A stretch of DNA of 55,927 bases from Sulfuricella sp. (GTDB lineage Bacteria; Pseudomonadota; Gammaproteobacteria; Burkholderiales; Sulfuricellaceae): NCBI GenBank assembly GCA_028714315.1, contig JAQTMN010000008.1, positions 1 through 55,927 of the forward strand, read 5' to 3'. This document shows, in pieces, positions 6,787-55,479 of the stretch. The notes below the pieces were generated by a model that saw only the letters and a list, made by a program, of their open reading frames with translations, did not search any database and was not told the DNA's origin. Made by a program: the position numbers and the translations under genes. Positions within the stretch are counted from its first letter, which is position 1; every line of letters begins with the position of its first letter.

Positions 6787-7509
6787 AATGTCGAGTTCCG
6801 GATAATGCCGGAAGATGCCCTCTTCGCTAAACGGCAGGCGCCGCTCCGAAGCCAGGTAGGCGGCGATATGCGGGCGCGCCGCAATCCGGTCGTGCAGCGA
6901 GGTCAGCCGGGGAATGGAGGATTCCAGGCGCGCCATTGCCCTGGAAAAGGCATAGCGCAGCCCGGCGATCAGCTGAAAAATCGACAGGTCCACATATGAC
7001 AATGTCCCGCAGGCCATGTGTTCGTCGTGGGAATTGCGTTCGAGCACCCGTTCGAAATAGCCGAGAAATTTGGGTATGCGCCCCCGAACGAACAGTTCGG
7101 CGGCGTGGCGCGCTTCCCTCTTCTGTTCTTCATAATAGAGGTCGGCCCCGATCGGGTGATGGGTATTGTGGATTTCCGCGACCAGGTCGGCGATCGTCAG
7201 TTGCAGCTGGTGCACCCACAGCCGTCCAGCCTCGTCCTCAGGCGCCAGGCCAAGCCGGGGGCCGAGGAAAAACAGGATATTGGCGGTCTGCGCAATGATC
7301 CGGTCGCCGGCCTTGAAGAACGGCGGCGCGAATGGCGGGCGCTCCAGTTCCGCAGAATCGAGAAAATGCAGCAGCGCCGATTCGCCCATGCCGTCGCGCT
7401 CGGGCAAACGCGCCACGTCCACATAATCGGCCCGCGCTTCTTCCAGGGCGAGCCTGACGAATTCGCCGCGGCCCTGTATGGACGGCCAGTAATAAAGCTC
7501 GTAGCGCAT
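6784..7509 (-). CDS. Glutathione S-transferase family protein
   Basis: 241 residues. An N-terminal thioredoxin-fold GST domain (ELYYWPSIQGRGEFVRLALEEA at ~4-25; PPFFKAGDRIIAQTANILFFLG around 60-85, containing the cis-Pro/glutathione region) precedes an all-helical C-terminal domain (~95-235). The organisation resembles Sigma/Alpha-like GSTs. Twelve bases separate it from the upstream Vgb-like gene, so they probably form an operon. The likely role is glutathione conjugation or peroxide/electrophile detoxification in the cytoplasm. The stop codon falls in the dispersed repeat. Confidence 0.85.
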   Translation of the reverse strand: MRYELYYWPSIQGRGEFVRLALEEARADYVDVARLPERDGMGESALLHFLDSAELERPPFAPPFFKAGDRIIAQTANILFFLGPRLGLAPEDEAGRLWVHQLQLTIADLVAEIHNTHHPIGADLYYEEQKREARHAAELFVRGRIPKFLGYFERVLERNSHDEHMACGTLSYVDLSIFQLIAGLRYAFSRAMARLESSIPRLTSLHDRIAARPHIAAYLASERRLPFSEEGIFRHYPELDI

Positions 7510-7521
7510 GTCGGCCGTGGC

Positions 7522-8499
7522 TTATTTGGTGGTGCGGTATACCACGAGATGATCGGTGCCCGATTCGGCTCCCCACACCTCCCCTTCCCTGCCGCTCAGC
7601 TGTCGAATATCGGCGCCCGGCCGGGGAGCGGGGAAAATCTCGAACAGATTGGTGTTGGGATCGAAGCGCAAAACGGCATTGGCGGCAAAATCGCTGAGCC
7701 AGACCTTGTCTTTTTCATCCACGTAAATTCCATAAGGCTTGGGCTTGTCGCCGGGCAAAGGCCACGACCGCCATTTGCCGGTGGCCGGCTCGTACGCGCT
7801 CAGCTGCCCCGCATTCCATTCGGCGATCCACAGCCGTCCGGTGGAATCCGCCGACAATCTTCTCGAGCCTTGCTTGGGGGTGGGCGGATTGATCACGCCG
7901 GCGGCGCCGGTCGCCGTGTCGATCCGGGCGATGTGGCTGCCGGCAAAAGATGCGTAATAGATGTCGCCGCTCGGGGTCGCTGTCATCCCGTAAGGACCGG
8001 CGCCGCCCGGTGCATCGAAAACCTTTATTTCGGAGCTGCGCGGGTCGATCCGCCCATAGATCCCGGTTTGCCCGGTGAACCACAGGATGCCGTGTTTATC
8101 GAAGGTCGCGCTGTTCAGGTTTTCATTGGGCCGCGAAGGGGACAGGTAAAAATAGGTCAGCCCGCCGGTTTTCGGTTCGACCCGGACAATGGCGTTCAGG
8201 CCGCCGTCGGCTACCCAGATCGCGTTGTCCGGGCCGAAAATCAGGCCATGGGGCGCCGAATCCTTGCCGAGATGAATTTCCTTGACCGCCTTGGTTTTTG
8301 GGTCCAGGCGGCCGATGGTGCCGCGTCCCTGCGCGGTGTACCAGACGTAATGGCTGCCCTTCTCCGGCGCAACATCGTGCGGGTGCGACCCGGCCGGGAC
8401 ATCGAAGGATTGCGTCTCCGTGGCGGCATGAACCGCCGACATCCCGAACATCCAGGCAAATGCAAGCATTGAAAAGCGGAAGCCCCATTTTTGCGCCAT
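7522..8499 (-). CDS. Secreted Vgb/SMP-30-like beta-propeller protein
   Basis: 325 residues with a signal peptide (cleavage near AVHA|AT, residue ~25). Repeated blades follow the motif HGL-F-GPDNAIWVADGG, NSATFDKHGILWFTGQTG, GMTATPSGDIYYASFAGSH and GIYVDEKDKVWLSDFAAN. This is typical of the virginiamycin B lyase/streptogramin lyase-like seven-bladed propeller. Most family members are not proven antibiotic lyases, so a periplasmic lactonase or binding role is as likely. The start is supported by GGAAGGAAAAAATCG just upstream. Co-oriented with the GST gene. Confidence 0.8.
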   Translation of the reverse strand: MAQKWGFRFSMLAFAWMFGMSAVHAATETQSFDVPAGSHPHDVAPEKGSHYVWYTAQGRGTIGRLDPKTKAVKEIHLGKDSAPHGLIFGPDNAIWVADGGLNAIVRVEPKTGGLTYFYLSPSRPNENLNSATFDKHGILWFTGQTGIYGRIDPRSSEIKVFDAPGGAGPYGMTATPSGDIYYASFAGSHIARIDTATGAAGVINPPTPKQGSRRLSADSTGRLWIAEWNAGQLSAYEPATGKWRSWPLPGDKPKPYGIYVDEKDKVWLSDFAANAVLRFDPNTNLFEIFPAPRPGADIRQLSGREGEVWGAESGTDHLVVYRTTK

Positions 8500-47083: not shown

Positions 47084-48340
47084 TCAGGGTACTTTTTGTC
47101 GAGAAAGATATATCGCATATGGCGTCTGCTCGGCGTGTTGAAGCGCCCTGTCAATGGCTTTTCGTCCAATACGGACATCCTGGTCCTTCAGCGTAGCCCG
47201 ATAAAAATCCGCATAAAACGCGTCAGGTTCCACCACGATCCTGGTGGTCAGAGCGATGGCTCGCGGATGCAAATTTCTCCGGTAAACGTAACGGCGGGTT
47301 TCATCCGGCATGATGCGAGTGTCGGACTTCTCCATGGTGAGGTCCAAGCTCACATCCCTTGCAATCAAGTGGCGTTCGATCGTTGACGCTATCATTTTCC
47401 CGCCCGCCGATTCCTGCCCGATTTCAACCCAGACCCGTGGCGTCACGTAAGTCGGGAAAGCATGGCCGACGGCACGGTTGGTGATTTGCAATTGCGCTGA
47501 AACCTGTCCCTTTGAGATGATCGGCGGCGAAGATTCGATTCCCAGCCCGGATTTCACCATTTCCGGGTCGTGAATGCCGCGCCATAAATGGCGGCGATCC
47601 GGCATGTGGCAGGACTGGCACGAGCGGTTCTCGCGGGCGTGGCGGCTGGCCCGCCATTCCTCATAGGTGTTCTCCAGCAATTTGCCGTTCAGTGTCGGGC
47701 CGTCGGCCTCGAACTGGTGGCAGGCGGCGCAGAAACGCGAATCCTCGAAGGCGTCCGTCGCTTGCCAGCCGTCATGCGGGAGTTGTCGCGGGGGCGCGCT
47801 GCCGTCCTTGCGCGGCGGCCCGAAAACCTGGCGGTTGCGGACATGGCATCCGGCGCACGTCAGGCCGTGGGCATGGGAAACGCCATCGGGACGGGGCGGC
47901 ACGGAATGGGGAGCATTGGCCAGGGTTTGGCGCAGGTGCTCGCCTTGTTCGGCAAGCGGTGCGTGGCATTGTAGGCAGGCTTGATGGTCGTCTCCGGCTG
48001 CTGCGCCCATTTCCTGCAATTGCCCGAACAATCCCGGACTCATCGCCCGGCTGTGCAGCGCGGATTTCCAATCCTCGAATTGGCGGGGATGGCAAGTGCC
48101 GCAGGCGGACGGAGCGAGCGATGCTTCCAACGCACTGAAATTTTCGGGAGCTGCACCTTGAGGCGCCAATGGCCGCCGCCAGTACTTTTCCAGAAACGCC
48201 GAGCGGGCGCCAGGCAAAGAGGCAGACGAGGAAGGAGACTGCGGCGAGGAAGCCGATCCGGGATCGGGGCTGGGATTGCAGCCGGTCAATACCAGGAGTA
48301 ATGCCGCGACTCCAAATAATGACCGCATCCCCATGCCCAT
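47084..48340 (-). CDS. Pentaheme cytochrome c lipoprotein
   Basis: 418 residues. Lipobox LTGC (C21), a Ser/Pro-rich spacer (~22-45), then five CxxCH haem sites in order: CGTCH, CLQCH, CAGCH, CAACH, CQSCH, all in residues ~80-245. The C-terminal ~170 residues are beta-rich with GHAFPTYVTPRVWVEIG, a feature of cytochrome c554-like multihaem proteins. Predicted periplasmic, outer-membrane-anchored electron carrier or oxidoreductase. It is the last gene of the NPC-peptide/sigma-factor array, 18 bp after the NPC peptide gene. Partner and substrate unknown. Confidence 0.88.
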   Translation of the reverse strand: MGMGMRSLFGVAALLLVLTGCNPSPDPGSASSPQSPSSSASLPGARSAFLEKYWRRPLAPQGAAPENFSALEASLAPSACGTCHPRQFEDWKSALHSRAMSPGLFGQLQEMGAAAGDDHQACLQCHAPLAEQGEHLRQTLANAPHSVPPRPDGVSHAHGLTCAGCHVRNRQVFGPPRKDGSAPPRQLPHDGWQATDAFEDSRFCAACHQFEADGPTLNGKLLENTYEEWRASRHARENRSCQSCHMPDRRHLWRGIHDPEMVKSGLGIESSPPIISKGQVSAQLQITNRAVGHAFPTYVTPRVWVEIGQESAGGKMIASTIERHLIARDVSLDLTMEKSDTRIMPDETRRYVYRRNLHPRAIALTTRIVVEPDAFYADFYRATLKDQDVRIGRKAIDRALQHAEQTPYAIYLSRQKVP

Positions 48341-48358: not shown

Positions 48359-48595
48359 TCACTTCTTGGAGCAGGGATTGGCGGCCTTCTGGGCGCACGG
48401 ATTGGCGGGTTTTGCCGCACACGGATTGGCCGCGCAGGGGTTGGCCTTCTTGCCTTTTTTCATCATCTTGGCTTTGGCCGGCGCACAGGGATTAGCCTTG
48501 GGCGCGCACGGGTTGGCCATTTCTTCCGCGGCAGCGGGGAACGCCAGGGCGGCGGCGATGAGGGCGGCGGAAGCGAGAGTCAGGATTTTTTGCAT
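48359..48595 (-). CDS. Secreted Asn-Pro-Cys repeat peptide
   Basis: 78 residues. Signal peptide ends at ~23 (AFPAAA|EE). The mature ~55 residues consist almost only of NPC units: ANPCAPKANPCAPAKAK, then MMKKGKK, then ANPCAANPCAAKPANPCAQK and AANPCSKK; six cysteines, all in NPC, interspersed with Ala, Lys and Pro. No folded family is visible. The spaced cysteines suit metal chelation, haem/thiol chemistry or cross-linking. The preceding gene encodes a cytochrome c that ends in the same repeats. Strong RBS (AAAGGAGCAAC). Function is open. Confidence 0.8.
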   Translation of the reverse strand: MQKILTLASAALIAAALAFPAAAEEMANPCAPKANPCAPAKAKMMKKGKKANPCAANPCAAKPANPCAQKAANPCSKK

Positions 48596-48641
48596 GGTGT
48601 TGCTCCTTTGGCGAAGTTAAATTAGGCGGCCCTACGGGCCT

Positions 48642-48765
48642 ACGCGAGTGCTGGCGGACGTTTTGCGGCCATTTTCGTTGCTTGCTCGTCGCCCATGGAA
48701 CAACCATGGGACTCCTCCCAAGCAACGAAACTGCCTCGCAAAACGCCTCGCCATCATCTCGCGTC
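48642..48765. repeat. Long imperfect inverted repeat (hairpin) between the two NPC genes
   Basis: Complementary blocks in order: ACGCGAG/CTCGCGT, GTTTTGCG/CGCAAAAC, TTTCGTTGCTTG/CAAGCAACGAAA, CCCATGG/CCATGGG. The whole folds as a ~60-bp imperfect stem. As RNA of the minus strand it would separate the cytochrome and peptide messages; it may be a processing or attenuation structure, or a MITE. Confidence 0.7.
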
Positions 48766-48798
48766 CTAATGGATTATCTGGGTTAAAAGCGGCGCGAA

Positions 48799-49332
48799 TC
48801 ATTTCTTCGCGCACGGGTTTGCCGGCTTCGCCGCGCAGGGGTTTGCGGGCTTGGCCGAACAAGGATTGGCCGGCGCCTTGGCGCCCGGCTTGAAGGTTTT
48901 CTGCACGCCCAGCGTATAGGCCTTCAGCGCGGCCAGTTCGCGGGAATCCCACGGCAACGGTTTGGCCGCCATCGGCATGACCATGCAGGCCTGAATCATC
49001 TCGTCGAGGTGCACCCTTTTCATGCCGGCCTTGTCCCTGGCCATGGCCACCTGGTGCGGGTAGGGTTTGGCGAAGCTCGATTGGAAAGCGCCGTGATCCT
49101 GGTGGCAGCTGTTGCAGGAAAGGCCGTTGGTCGAGAGTTTGGTGTCGTGCCAGAGCTTTTCACCGAGTTTGGCATCGCCCGCCATCGGCTTGTAGCCTTG
49201 CGGACGGGTGATGGTTTTGGCGTCGATTTCCGGCTTGCCCGCGGCGCAGGGATTGCCGGCGGCGGATGCCGACCCGATGGGAAAATTGCCGATGGCTGCG
49301 GACAGCAGTAGCACGATGGACAGCGTTTTCAT
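48799..49332 (-). CDS. Cytochrome c with C-terminal NPC-repeat tail
   Basis: 177 residues from the ATG at 49332 (AAGGAG upstream). Signal peptide ends at ~24 (SASA|AG) and is followed at once by an NPC unit (GNPCAAG). Class I cytochrome domain ~50-150: LGEKLWHDTKLSTNGLSCNS then CH, so the single CxxCH is CNSCH, with HLDEMIQACMVMPMAAKPLP as the distal methionine region. The tail is three NPC repeats (ANPCSAKPANPCAAKPANPC). Periplasmic. The same repeat forms the next gene product, a strong clue to joint function. Confidence 0.85.
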   Translation of the reverse strand: MKTLSIVLLLSAAIGNFPIGSASAAGNPCAAGKPEIDAKTITRPQGYKPMAGDAKLGEKLWHDTKLSTNGLSCNSCHQDHGAFQSSFAKPYPHQVAMARDKAGMKRVHLDEMIQACMVMPMAAKPLPWDSRELAALKAYTLGVQKTFKPGAKAPANPCSAKPANPCAAKPANPCAKK

Positions 49333-49421: not shown

Positions 49422-50150
49422 TCAAATCGACGTCGTCAGGCGCACCAGCCATTCCGGCGCGACACGCAGTACCCAGGTCTCGAACAGCTTGTCGGCGCCG
49501 CTCAGGATCAGTAGGCCGAGCGCCAGCATGACGCCGCCCAGCAGCATTTTTCCGAGCTTGCCCGTGGCCAGCAACCTGCCGCGGACTCTTGCCATCGCCC
49601 CCCGCGACGCCAGCCCCAGAACGGCCAGCGGCAAGGCGGCACCGACACCGAACAGCGCCATCATCAGCGTTATCTGGCCGAGGCTTTGTCCTTGGCTGGC
49701 CAGTGTCACCGCCGCGCCAAGCGTTGGCCCGACGCAGGGACTCCAGACGACACCGAGCAGCAACCCAAGAACGAACTGGCCCGAGAGCCCGTCGAGCGAC
49801 ACCTTGGACAACAGCGAATTCCCCGCACCGGAAAGGCCGGATGCCGCCATGGCGAAACGCTCCTGCAAACGCGAGGACAACAGCACGATGCCGAAGGCGA
49901 TCAACAGGATTGCCGCGATCAGGCGGAACACGCCCTGGTCGATTCCCAGCGCGGCGCCCAGGCTGGCGACGAACACCCCGACCGCGGTAAACGACAGCGT
50001 CAGTCCGCCCGCCAGCGCAAACGCGCCGAAACGGTGCGCTGACACGGCGGTGGCAAGCAGGATCGGCAACAGCGGCAGCACGCAGGGGGAAAGCGTGGAC
50101 AGGCCGCCCGCAGCGAGGGCAAGACCGTAGGTTGCCGGACCGAATTCCAT
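49422..50150 (-). CDS. CcdA/DsbD-like thiol-transport membrane protein
   Basis: 242 residues with six helices in two homologous halves. Each half carries one conserved cysteine: LSTLSPCVLPLLPILLAT (~18-35) and VVWSPCVGPTLGA (~134-146). These two cysteines are the CcdA/ScsB-type pair that passes electrons from cytoplasmic thioredoxin to periplasmic partners. GAGGAG overlaps the stop of the thioredoxin gene upstream, so both are one unit. Probable client: the downstream periplasmic thioredoxin-like protein, apocytochromes, or the NPC peptide. Confidence 0.9.
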   Translation of the reverse strand: MEFGPATYGLALAAGGLSTLSPCVLPLLPILLATAVSAHRFGAFALAGGLTLSFTAVGVFVASLGAALGIDQGVFRLIAAILLIAFGIVLLSSRLQERFAMAASGLSGAGNSLLSKVSLDGLSGQFVLGLLLGVVWSPCVGPTLGAAVTLASQGQSLGQITLMMALFGVGAALPLAVLGLASRGAMARVRGRLLATGKLGKMLLGGVMLALGLLILSGADKLFETWVLRVAPEWLVRLTTSI

Positions 50151-50162
50151 GATCGCGGCTCC

Positions 50163-50543
50163 TCAGAGCGCCTTCTTCAACAGCGCCGCGATGCTGTCTT
50201 TTCGGGTGTCTCCGGTGGAACGGCCCACTTCCTTGCCGCCCTTGAAGACGATCAGCGTGCTTTGATATTGCGCCTTGAAAGCCCTGACCGCGTCCTTCTG
50301 CTTGTCGAAATCGACACGCAGCGCGGTCAGCCCCCGCAACTCCGGCGTCTTGAGCAGCTCGGAAAGAATCGGTTCCTGCGCCTTGCAGGTCGGGCACCAG
50401 TCGGCGTGGATCGCCACCAGAATCGGTTTGCCCTGTTGTTGCAAGGCATCGAAGGCGGCTTGGTCGAAGGCTTGCCCGACAGCCTGCGCCTGTCCGGCGG
50501 CGAGCAGCGAAAGCAGCAACAGTGAACGGATGAACCTGAACAT
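50163..50543 (-). CDS. Periplasmic thioredoxin-family protein
   Basis: 126 residues; signal peptide ~1-21 (LLAAGQAQA|VG). Thioredoxin fold with active site WCPTC (residues ~49-53, DWCPTCKAQEPIL), ALRVDFDKQKDAVRAFKAQY and the cis-proline region STLIVFKGGKEVG, where Ser-Thr replaces the usual Thr-Pro. Reduced periplasmic thioredoxins maintain apocytochrome or metal-site cysteines. AAGGAG upstream of ATG. Gene order with ccdA-like supports a CcdA-powered reductase. Confidence 0.9.
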   Translation of the reverse strand: MFRFIRSLLLLSLLAAGQAQAVGQAFDQAAFDALQQQGKPILVAIHADWCPTCKAQEPILSELLKTPELRGLTALRVDFDKQKDAVRAFKAQYQSTLIVFKGGKEVGRSTGDTRKDSIAALLKKAL

Positions 50544-50601: not shown

Positions 50602-50808
50602 TTACACGGGCGGCCGATCGTTTTCCGGTTTTATTTCGGTCTCCGGGTAACGTGCGCAGGCGGTGTGGAGAAACGCCATCTGTTTGCGAAAATTCCGGCA
50701 GCCGGCGCACATCGCCACATGGAAGCGCAAACTCAAATGCTCGCCAAAGGCGAGAGAATCATCCTGTTCCCGCGACATCAATTCGGTGGCCTGTTTGCAA
50801 TTCAGCAT
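50602..50808 (-). CDS. Zinc-finger anti-sigma factor (zf-HC2-like)
   Basis: 68 residues from the ATG at 50808 (AAAGGAAAGATC). Pattern MLNCKQATELMSREQDDSLA then LRFHVAMCAGCRNFRKQM, giving the H-x3-C-x2-C zinc site of anti-sigma ASD domains. No membrane helix, so it is a soluble, possibly redox-sensing anti-sigma. Overlaps the sigma gene by 7 bp. A cysteine-linked zinc site next to a thioredoxin/CcdA pair suggests control by thiol or metal status. Confidence 0.88.
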   Translation of the reverse strand: MLNCKQATELMSREQDDSLAFGEHLSLRFHVAMCAGCRNFRKQMAFLHTACARYPETEIKPENDRPPV

Positions 50809-51383
50809 GATCTTTCCTTTTCCGGGTCGAACCAGGTTTTGTCCAGGCACAGGCGCAATCCCATGCGGGCGCGGTGCAGCAGCACCCAGCAATTAGTCGG
50901 CGTGATCCCCAATTCCTTACAGATTTCCCCGGTATCGAAACCGAGAAACTCGCGCATCATGAAAACGCGCGCGGTGTGTTCCGGCAAATGGTCGAGGCAA
51001 GCCTCGAAGACCGCCCAGAAACGGGTGTTCTCCAGGCTTTTGGCGGGATCGCCCCAATCCGCTGGGCGTTCGTCCCTTTGCCAATGGCCGCGCCGGTCGA
51101 ACAGCGAGTCAAAAGAATCGTCGGGAATGTCATCGGCGATGTTGCCCAGCGCCGGTTCCCGGCTGCGCCGGCGAATGGTGTCGATGATCTTGTGCTTGAG
51201 AATGGCAAACATCCAGGTCTTGAGTTGCGACCGGCTGTCGAATCCTGGCGCAGCTTCCAGCGCCGCGACCAGAGTTTCCTGGACGGCATCCTCGGCAGCC
51301 GCCCGATCGCGCAATTGCAGGATGGCGAAGCGCAGCAGGTCGCCACGGAAAGCGCCGAGCTGCTCGGAAATCGCCACGTTCAT
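50802..51383 (-). CDS. ECF RNA polymerase sigma factor
   Basis: 193 residues. Sigma-2 region ~10-80 (DLLRFAILQLRDRAAAEDAV, LKTWMFAILKHKIIDTIRRR) and sigma-4 region ~125-180 (EHTARVFMMREFLGFDTGEI, LGITPTNCWVLLHRARMGLR), with a linker in between. The TPTNCWVLLHRAR variant is typical of a group of ECF factors paired with soluble zf-HC2 anti-sigmas. Start ATGA overlaps the HD-GYP stop. It likely drives its own operon, including thiol and cytochrome genes. Confidence 0.93.
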   Translation of the reverse strand: MNVAISEQLGAFRGDLLRFAILQLRDRAAAEDAVQETLVAALEAAPGFDSRSQLKTWMFAILKHKIIDTIRRRSREPALGNIADDIPDDSFDSLFDRRGHWQRDERPADWGDPAKSLENTRFWAVFEACLDHLPEHTARVFMMREFLGFDTGEICKELGITPTNCWVLLHRARMGLRLCLDKTWFDPEKERSC

Positions 51384-54064: not shown

Positions 54065-54112
54065 ATGGCACCGGTGATGGCCGCGCCTCACGGCATACAC
54101 AAGACATCATGA
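54065..54112 (+). CDS. 15-residue leader ORF upstream of the disulfide reductase
   Basis: AGGAGG 4 nt before the ATG, then MAPVMAAPHGIHKTS and a TGA that overlaps the reductase ATG (ATGA, 54109-54112). The reductase itself has no good ribosome-binding site. Seen directly: excellent RBS and overlap. Inferred: translational coupling or attenuation. Confidence 0.55.
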   Translation: MAPVMAAPHGIHKTS

Positions 54113-55479
54113 AAGAGTTTGATATCGCCATTGTCGGTGCCGGTCAAGCCGGCCCTGCGCTGTCAAAATCGCTGGCGAAAGCCGGCCGCCGCGTCGCGCT
54201 CATTGAACGCGAGCACATGGGCGGTTCCTGCATCAATTTCGGCTGCACGCCGACCAAGGCGGTTCTGGCGTCGGCGCGCGTCGCCCATTTGGCGCAACGT
54301 GCCCAGGATTTCGGCATCGCCATTCCCTCGGTCCAGATAGATTTTCCGGCGGTTTTGAGACGCGCCGAGAGCATCGTGCAGCGCATGCGCGATTCCTTGC
54401 AAGAGAGTTTCGGCGGGGACAATCCGCTCTTGCTGTCGGGGCATGCACGCTTCCTGGCGCGGGAAGAATCCGGTTTTCGCCTTGCGGTGGGCGACGAGGA
54501 AATCCGGGCCAAACAGGTGGTGCTCGACACCGGCACGCGTAGCGCACTGCCGGACATCGACGGCTTGCGCGGCATCGATTTTCTCGACGCGGAGAACTGG
54601 CTGCTGCGGCGCGAATTGCCGCAGCATCTGGCGATGGTCGGCGGTGGCTACATCGGGCTGGAGATGGCGCAGTTCTATCGCCGCATGGGCGCCGGCGTGA
54701 CGGTAATCCAAAGCGGCGGCCAAGTGGCGGAGAAGGAAGATGCCGACGTGGCGGTCGCGCTGCAGCGATTGCTGGAAAACGAAGGCATCACCTTTTGCTT
54801 GAACAGCAAGGCGGTACGATTCCGAAAAGCCGACGGTGGCGTTATGCTGACCTTGGAAAGCGGCGGCAAGACGACGGAATTTTTCGCCTCGCACGTGTTC
54901 ATCGCGCTCGGCCGCAAGCCGAACACGGACGACCTGGGATTGGAAAATATCGGCCTGCGGCCGACGGAAAAAGGCCTATTGGAAGTGGACCGGCGGCTCT
55001 GTACAAAAGTCCCCGGAGTATGGGCGGTAGGCGATATCCGCGGCGGCCCCATGTTCACCCATATCGCGTGGGATGACTACCGCATCGTCGAGTCGCAGCT
55101 GATCGGCGATGAGTCGCGCACCACCAAGCGCATCGTGCCGTATGCGATTTTCACCGACCCCGAACTGGGCAGGGTGGGCATGACGGAAAAAGAAGCGCGC
55201 GAGAGCGGCAGGAATATCCAGGTCGCGCGCTTCGACATGAAAGCCAACGGCAAGGCGGTGGAGATGGGTGAGGCCGAGGGCTTCGTCAAGGTGGTGACCG
55301 ATGCCGACTCGCAGCGCATCCTGGGCGCTGCCGTTCTGTCCGCCGAAGCGGCGGAACTGGTCCACATCTACGTCGCGCTGATGAACGCGGATGCGCCTTA
55401 CACGGTGTTGAAAAATGCGATCCAGATTCATCCCACCTTGTCGGAAGCGATACAGAGTGCGGTCTCATCACTCCGTTAA
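54109..55479 (+). CDS. FAD-dependent dihydrolipoyl dehydrogenase/mercuric reductase-like protein
   Basis: 456 residues. FAD-binding GAGQAGP (~10-16), redox-active pair in GGSCINFGCTPTK (C41 and C46), NAD(P)-binding GGGYIGLEMAQFYRRMG, second FAD motif GVWAVGDIRGGP, and the C-terminal His-Pro-Thr-Leu-Ser-Glu acid-base motif (IHPTLSEAI). This is a class I pyridine nucleotide-disulfide oxidoreductase. There is no N-terminal HMA or C-terminal Cys-Cys, so it is not classical MerA; a lipoamide- or other disulfide reductase is likely. The dehydrogenase complex genes are not nearby. Confidence 0.92.
   Translation: MKEFDIAIVGAGQAGPALSKSLAKAGRRVALIEREHMGGSCINFGCTPTKAVLASARVAHLAQRAQDFGIAIPSVQIDFPAVLRRAESIVQRMRDSLQESFGGDNPLLLSGHARFLAREESGFRLAVGDEEIRAKQVVLDTGTRSALPDIDGLRGIDFLDAENWLLRRELPQHLAMVGGGYIGLEMAQFYRRMGAGVTVIQSGGQVAEKEDADVAVALQRLLENEGITFCLNSKAVRFRKADGGVMLTLESGGKTTEFFASHVFIALGRKPNTDDLGLENIGLRPTEKGLLEVDRRLCTKVPGVWAVGDIRGGPMFTHIAWDDYRIVESQLIGDESRTTKRIVPYAIFTDPELGRVGMTEKEARESGRNIQVARFDMKANGKAVEMGEAEGFVKVVTDADSQRILGAAVLSAEAAELVHIYVALMNADAPYTVLKNAIQIHPTLSEAIQSAVSSLR

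Follow-up and report, generated by a model that had tools for sequence, protein, structure and literature searches.

Background

The Sox system (SoxAX, SoxYZ, SoxV/SoxW) is one of the described systems closest to the locus reported here. The two have in common a cytochrome of the SoxA/TsdA fold, reactive cysteines on flexible segments and a thioredoxin together with CcdA; our comparison for sulfur binding is with the swinging arm of SoxYZ (PMC5336275), and SoxV appears in the reference list of PMC10451225 as a CcdA orthologue that reduces SoxW. Enzymes of the SoxA family act through a haem-ligating cysteine, and the dihaem TsdA has Arg119 and Ser127 around its haem Cys123 (both according to PMC4423706). 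PMC11582611, which treats the YeeE/YedE-like SoxT and the PmpAB importers, describes the import of sulfur into the cytoplasm as poorly understood and leaves open which species is transported. These proteins, themselves transporters, are encoded next to many of the DUF6969-type cysteine-repeat peptides described below.

Repeated exported cysteines also mark the bufferins and oxazolins (PMC12452194), which resemble the peptide reported here in being small, signal-bearing peptides with repeated cysteines, in the sigma-factor genes found near some of them and in an adjoining partner gene. The Asn-Pro-Cys (NPC) repeat itself is met in the open-licence literature on bacteria only in CdeC of the Clostridioides difficile exosporium, a self-assembling protein that contains six NPC in its repeat (PMC7677010); CdeC is a Gram-positive spore-coat protein and is likened to our peptide by the repeat alone. 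The strings NPCAAK, NPCAAKNPC and ANPCAAK are absent from the open-licence literature, the phrase "NPC repeat" in connection with cytochromes is absent among the matches listed there, and no mention of DUF6969 was found in it.

The window analysed here is a stretch of 55,927 nucleotides from Sulfuricella sp. It encodes an NPC-repeat peptide next to a cytochrome c with NPC arms (genomes and loci used for comparison carry G and L numbers, the window genome being G000). We consider the system new in its make-up, with several components of known fold, because it lacks a feature that defines each of the systems compared (bufferins, SoxYZ and the enzymes SoxA/TsdA) and no description was found in the open-licence literature.

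The repeat peptide and its cytochrome neighbour

The first-pass annotation had read a 78-residue peptide with six NPC units and, adjacent to it, a cytochrome with one NPC after a signal-like segment and three at its C-terminus. Open reading frames, coordinates, repeat numbers and adjacency all proved correct (Table 1). The six cysteines of the peptide lie without exception within NPC units. In 20,000 shuffled copies of the peptide NPC occurred 0.06 times on average and at most twice, against six in the real sequence; the same number of shuffles of the cytochrome gave a mean of 0.03 and a maximum of 2, against four. Among the 111,850 six-frame residues of the whole window there are 15 NPC, ten of which fall in these two genes. 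The NPC counts lie far above those of shuffled copies, and the common repeat module proposed for both proteins is supported. A fixed ANPCxAKP spacing could not be upheld: the repeats are real, but the spacers vary (APK, AAK, AQK, SKK, APAKAK and others).

The peptide matched no Pfam family at E 0.1, and against NCBIfam only WGxxGxxG appeared (E 0.22, below its cut-off). The statement that no named family explains the pair therefore holds for the peptide and fails for the cytochrome, which falls into the SoxA/TsdA fold family. The signal-peptide-like start of the peptide was judged by eye, and its putative export rests on hydrophobicity and inspection rather than on a signal-peptide program.

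Table 1. Features of the NPC locus in the window, in window positions.
Feature	Coordinates	Strand	Evidence and remarks
Pentahaem c-type cytochrome	47084..48340	(-)	lipoprotein-like start (by eye); weakly ExtKL-like, 40.3 bits vs cut-off 250
NPC-repeat peptide	48359..48595	(-)	78 aa, six NPC, signal-like start; ORF and motif count
Long imperfect palindrome, 191 nt	48610..48800	(-)	between cytochrome and peptide genes; folding energy -92.4 kcal/mol (z -7.45)
Monohaem SoxA/TsdA-like cytochrome c with NPC arms	48799..49332	(-)	177 aa; one CxxCH (CNSCH at residues 73-77); conserved Cys116
CcdA/DsbD-type membrane thiol-disulfide transporter	49422..50150	(-)	Pfam PF02683
Thioredoxin-like protein (WCPTC)	50163..50543	(-)	Pfam PF00085; signal-like start by eye
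zf-HC2 anti-sigma factor	50602..50808	(-)	NF052368 70.2 bits, cut-off 50; start placed by eye at an internal ATG, longest ORF reaches 50892
ECF sigma factor, TIGR02943 family	50802..51383	(-)	264.8 bits, cut-off 162
HD-GYP-like protein, C-terminal zinc-ribbon-like segment	51380..52237	(-)	Pfam HD_5; overlaps ECF gene

Gene order and recurrence in relatives

Read in the direction of transcription, the row on the minus strand comprises the HD-GYP-like, ECF sigma, zf-HC2, thioredoxin, CcdA, NPC cytochrome, NPC peptide and pentahaem cytochrome genes. The HD-GYP-like gene neighbours the ECF gene also in G014 and G057. Cytochrome and peptide genes are separated by 203 bp in the window and by 35 bp in G014 and G003, the latter figure depending on the chosen starts; gene calls were heuristic. 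The palindrome in the window's gap is a single copy in the sequence examined, bar one 20-bp match in G003; it might represent a structure formed in the transcript or else a small mobile element.

Of 61 genomes (its own and 60 relatives), 15 had a match to the cytochrome at E <= 0.001, and only its own genome, G014, G003 and G032 had one below 1e-50. In all four the cytochrome bears NPC arms and its gene is succeeded first by that of the peptide and then by the pentahaem gene. Pair, order and neighbours are found again in two further genera. The peptides of these genomes and of G057 (alignment A2) have six NPC in five of five cases, with differing linkers. Unconserved repeats or neighbourhoods had been named beforehand as grounds for abandoning the idea of a common module; both recur in relatives. 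G057 combines an open six-NPC peptide with the pentahaem gene and the block of ECF, zf-HC2, thioredoxin, CcdA and HD-GYP genes, and a pentahaem gene lies near NPC genes in G102, G150 and G178 as well. The NPC cytochrome of G057 is a C-terminal remnant beside the open peptide (L027 8530-8634), followed by a bufferin operon.

Thioredoxin and CcdA genes adjoin the cytochrome gene in the window, G014, G032, L033, L035, L036, L085 and L087; a thiol supply of the SoxV/SoxW type is thus encoded together with the window system. On a wider scale, a profile of the NPC repeats matched in 16 of 399 genomes of the order, and a scan in which each species was represented by a single genome yielded 23 cytochrome loci, with hosts that include a Hydrogenophilales MAG (probably the same record as G003), a Rhodocyclales MAG, Stutzerimonas, Oceanisphaera, Zobellella, Marinobacter, Halospina, Vreelandella, Nitrosomonas halophila and Aquisalimonas. 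These 23 loci, 14 NPC loci of the order and 29 DUF6969 loci make up the 66 loci whose neighbourhoods are referred to below.

Two further kinds of neighbour were recorded. Near NPC cytochromes, the window (54109-55476) and ten other loci of the 66 encode a pyridine nucleotide-disulfide oxidoreductase, in many cases as a fusion with a VTT membrane domain, which may belong to the same pathway. A chemotaxis-receptor-like cluster (c12) lies near NPC genes in five loci and a cluster c20 in three, L086 and L089 being among the loci concerned; both were labelled by eye.

The cytochrome domain

By Pfam the cytochrome matches PF21342 (38.4 bits, cut-off 27) and CCP_MauG (32.5 bits, cut-off 25.6), while its score for the SoxA equivalog TIGR04484, 29.6 bits, lies under the cut-off of 110 bits. 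The AlphaFold model consists of a domain predicted with confidence (80-98 in blocks of ten residues between 31 and 150) and disordered ends of low confidence, which is in part due to a thin alignment in which all rows other than the window's were cut back to some 100 residues past the haem motif. In a Foldseek search ranks 1-12 were all TsdA or SoxA(X), with TsdA structures such as 5lo9 and 4wq7 at the top; the best match had E 0.009 (none reached E <= 0.001) and a probability of 1.00, and the TM of just 0.42 results from the disordered ends being counted in the length. By sequence, the profile matched dihaem peroxidases in the PDB best (6e1c at 2e-5, 1iqc at 8e-5), through the haem motif only, and SoxA 1h31 third, at 3e-4 for the whole sequence and 0.19 for the stretch that pairs the conserved cysteine with a SoxA cysteine. 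An hhalign comparison with the SoxA of G014 was likewise weak (29% probability). The predicted fold of the cytochrome is that of SoxA/TsdA.

Conserved residues were read from 36 cytochrome cores (the window, G014, the 23 one-per-species loci and 11 more). The haem motif, a P-H pair, a methionine and M-x-Q-x-C are invariant; the extraction pattern itself demanded M-x-[QW]-x-C, and all 36 loci tried matched it. A cysteine occupies the candidate distal haem-ligand position in every core, where the weak alignment to SoxA 1h31 places it, and a cysteine-ligated haem is plausible. Around this cysteine the TsdA arginine at Cys-4, which is also present in the SoxA of G014 (by eye), is replaced by methionine in 36 of 36 cytochromes, and the TsdA serine at Cys+4 by proline in 35 of 36. 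In view of these replacements the haem is unlikely to conjugate thiosulfate in the canonical way. The window cytochrome, although TsdA heads its structural matches, thus differs from that dihaem enzyme in having one haem, Met/Pro for Arg/Ser, and NPC arms.

Repeat arms and separate peptides

At least one PC-repeat unit lies outside the domain in 31 of the 36 cytochromes, and none in five (L036, L047, L050, L051, L053); the longest arms have 20-28 units. A separate NPC peptide is encoded in the examined stretch of 14 of the 36 cytochrome loci, a count that includes L033 and excludes L052, whose seemingly separate peptide is the N-terminal arm of the cytochrome itself read in a different frame. 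Eleven loci with arms of 12-28 units (L038-L044, L046, L048, L049, L054, among which L046 and L049 are short stretches) and L088 with 15 units have no separate peptide, whereas L086, L089 and L095 have both 13-14 arm units and a separate peptide. To judge from these sequences, long arms may stand in for the peptide as a tendency, not as a rule.

Arms on both sides of the domain would suit polymerisation, and with the pentahaem cytochrome as neighbour one might think of NPC chains that cross-link by disulfides or tether cytochromes to one another and so build up an electron-conducting or protective layer, comparable to the self-assembly of CdeC. We regard such a structural role as very unlikely: the adjoining thioredoxin and CcdA would reduce disulfide links, the linkers are rich in lysine and the chains short, and the linkage to YeeE and rhodanese genes described below would not be accounted for. 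The disorder of the arms in the model is in keeping with a role as carriers.

DUF6969 as a second partner

In several relatives a gene with the uncharacterised domain DUF6969 (PF22308) adjoins the NPC cytochrome or peptide gene. An unbiased search of the class, in which DUF6969 was the sole query against 369 genomes, found it in 29 genomes of 22 families. A cysteine-repeat protein, either peptide or NPC cytochrome, is encoded on the same strand within 1 kb of DUF6969 in 26 of these 29 genomes and 20 of the 22 families, in most cases no more than 60 bp away from the DUF6969 frame; L131 and L132 (one genus) and L151 have no such neighbour. The first scan used PC motifs only, L135, L136 and L152 were decided by reading the flanks, and all were rechecked; L141 and L143 count among the 26 with just two units and L129 is cut by a contig end, its start unseen. 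The repeats beside DUF6969 are of the types NPCAAK, NPCAPS, SPCSLD, PCGLD, CAATC (L135) and CCG (L136); the constant feature is a low-complexity cysteine chain behind a hydrophobic N-terminus and not the letters NPC. In about a dozen of the 26 (PCGLD/SPCSL type) this hydrophobic stretch could be an anchor instead of a cleaved signal.

In L136 the CCG repeats stand at the end of a peptide (6925-7128) upstream of DUF6969. Outside the 29 loci, a Rhodoferax MAG (L036, about 7469-7801) encodes a KCAPK-type Cys-Lys repeat peptide that has a signal-like start; DUF6969 and a cytochrome without arms are encoded nearby.

A YeeE/YedE or PmpAB sulfur transporter is encoded in the examined stretch of 15 of the 29 DUF6969 loci and a rhodanese in 14, these families being verified on one example each; a common order is yeeE, peptide, DUF6969, rhodanese. 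For comparison, the window's genome has one YeeE/PmpAB-type transporter gene in 2.9 Mb, which corresponds to a chance of about 0.4% for a stretch of 13 kb, far below the observed frequency; since the DUF6969 loci are related by descent, the formal probability calculated for this association is an overstatement.

This linkage bears on the idea that the NPC repeats have no cargo of their own and are substrates of thiol quality control or of cytochrome c maturation, the thioredoxin and CcdA then forming the thiol pathway of haem attachment. System II maturation indeed commonly relies on CcdA and a thioredoxin for its thiol chemistry. We consider this highly improbable, since the association with DUF6969 and YeeE would be left over and non-haem cysteine-repeat peptides occur with no cytochrome-domain match in the examined stretch (e.g. 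L128-L130, L133, L137-L150; the matches of L126 and L127 to the cytochrome are to its repeats).

The DUF6969 protein gives a confident model (pLDDT 88, from nine sequences), with no usable match in the PDB by sequence or by fold (best E 0.3). YHxH, EHGHxHxF, a later histidine, a glycine and NxWV are invariant in the 36 of 46 sequences that were aligned (alignment A5; the ten omitted are near-duplicates or rows such as L043, L102 and L107 that cross a stop), a pattern that suggests a metal site. A cytosolic DUF6969 metalloenzyme might accordingly modify the cysteine repeats before export, similar to MNIO in its working and unrelated to it, with the window's lineage as a derived form that lost the enzyme. 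The invariant histidine motifs, a confident fold without PDB counterpart and the constancy of the neighbourhood across very different repeat types favour such a role. Loss of DUF6969 from a common cluster would fit, since in G102 an open DUF6969 frame stands in line with the genes of the cytochrome, the peptide and the pentahaem protein, and G032 retains a short DUF6969 remnant at the same place, just past the pentahaem gene and before a YeeE-family frame. However, no DUF6969 match was found in the window genome (85% complete), G003 (87%), G057 or the complete G014, all of which have open NPC peptide genes; DUF6969 is not known to have an enzymatic activity, and a chaperone or a sulfur enzyme would explain it as well. 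As the account of the whole system we therefore hold modification by DUF6969 to be decidedly unlikely; it would be compatible with sulfur carriage or with metal buffering. The DUF6969-linked cysteine-repeat peptides, a group defined here, share repeats and cytochrome with the window type, which has thioredoxin and CcdA and does without DUF6969.

Sulfur genes, metal genes and bufferins

In the complete genome G014, soxX, soxA, soxY (with GGCGG end) and a soxZ-like frame (by eye) start on the opposite strand at a distance of about 6 kb from the NPC cytochrome gene, with the ECF gene, the HD-GYP gene and a gene for a SulP-family transporter in between. SoxY is not enriched with NPC across genomes (11 of 16 NPC genomes against 237 of 383 others, p 0.79), and a YeeE gene is present in the examined stretch of only one of the 23 cytochrome loci. 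The SoxY domain (PF13501, C-terminal GGCGG) is absent from the peptide by Pfam, a separate SoxY-family gene being found elsewhere in the window genome. In contrast to the Sox system, the window peptide bears many cysteines in low-complexity sequence where the folded SoxY carrier has one, and the cytochrome has a single haem and lacks an arginine of the TsdA/SoxA type. Taken together, the neighbourhoods point to sulfur handling first (YeeE/PmpAB, rhodanese, and sox genes in one genome) and to arsenic genes second.

The main rival to a sulfur function is the buffering of metals or metalloids, in which periplasmic NPC cysteines would bind Cu(I), As(III) or Hg(II), the ECF and zf-HC2 proteins sense the metal, thioredoxin and CcdA reduce the thiols, and the cytochrome serve as electron outlet or sensor. 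It would account better than the sulfur reading for the ECF genes, which occur in 12 of 37 cytochrome/NPC loci (seven of the 23 cytochrome loci), and for the bufferin operons (DUF2282-type peptide, MNIO, DUF2063) beside NPC genes in G057, G133 and G542. It is also in line with the repeated exported cysteines that mark bufferins and oxazolins, with ACR3 and ArsM genes in four of the 66 loci each and with the 11 loci (nine of the 23 cytochrome loci) that encode a VTT/flavin-disulfide-reductase fusion or a protein related to it; the labels ACR3, ArsM and mercuric-reductase-like were given by eye, an SBF/ACR3-type protein being confirmed by Pfam for L032 only. Yet the arsenic genes are confined to a small minority of loci, motifs of copper ATPases and multicopper oxidases, looked for by a motif scan, are absent from the 66 loci, MNIO is not enriched (6 of 16 NPC genomes against 190 of 383 others, p 0.45), and the linkage to YeeE and rhodanese would be left unexplained. 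We rate metal buffering as possible, if somewhat unlikely.

A modifying enzyme had been among the shared partners proposed in the first-pass annotation. As a requirement, a bufferin-type enzyme is ruled out by the absence of MNIO (PF05114) from G000, G003, G032 and the complete G014. Where MNIO does lie beside NPC genes (G057, G133, G542), it has a DUF2282-type substrate peptide of its own, confirmed by Pfam for G057 and G133 and by eye for G542. The window peptide has no DUF2282 match and, by inspection, no EGKCG motif. The NPC type thus differs from bufferins and oxazolins in needing no MNIO and in lacking DUF2282 and EGKCG, and its relatives have DUF6969 and sulfur-transport neighbours.

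A proposed carrier function

We interpret the locus as encoding a disordered multi-cysteine carrier of sulfur or thiols, with the peptide acting in trans and the cytochrome arms in cis, kept reduced by thioredoxin and CcdA and wired to respiration by the cytochrome. We give this reading a probability of roughly 0.4, and no more, because we infer both cargo and export and because the cytochrome does not have the known catalytic residues. The sequences themselves show the genes, the repeats, their conservation and linkage and, as a prediction, the fold of the cytochrome; the direction and all enzymatic steps are inferred as well. Peptide and arms would form a single functional module, an exported disordered cysteine chain, whose thiophilic cargo is most likely sulfur, as persulfide or thiosulfonate, comparable to that on the single cysteine of the SoxY swinging arm. 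The periplasmic thioredoxin and CcdA would hold the chain cysteines reduced in the manner of SoxW/SoxV in the Sox system. The SoxA-fold cytochrome might accept electrons when the cysteines are loaded or oxidised, passing them on in the window's lineage probably via the pentahaem cytochrome.

In relatives, an exported rhodanese may serve the carrier, which would pass its sulfur to the YeeE/PmpAB importers. DUF6969, presumably cytosolic and likely to have a metal site, could act there either on the carrier prior to its export or on sulfur that has been imported; the window's lineage would manage without it. A more far-reaching reading is an undescribed exported carrier of disordered multi-cysteine chains, free or on both ends of a SoxA-fold cytochrome, which collects periplasmic sulfur or another thiophilic cargo for YeeE/PmpAB and whose chain is modified before export by DUF6969 as a metalloenzyme of unseen fold. 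In this full form we consider it rather unlikely.

Conclusions

DUF6969 gains a consistent partner across most of the families in which it was found. The fusion of the repeats to a cytochrome indicates a possible electron-exchange partner of the cysteine chain. If the cargo were a metal, the system would be an MNIO-independent counterpart of the bufferins. If the carrier reading is true, a widespread cysteine-repeat peptide whose gene lies between those of sulfur importers and rhodaneses would directly suggest itself as the agent that hands sulfur over to YeeE/PmpAB.
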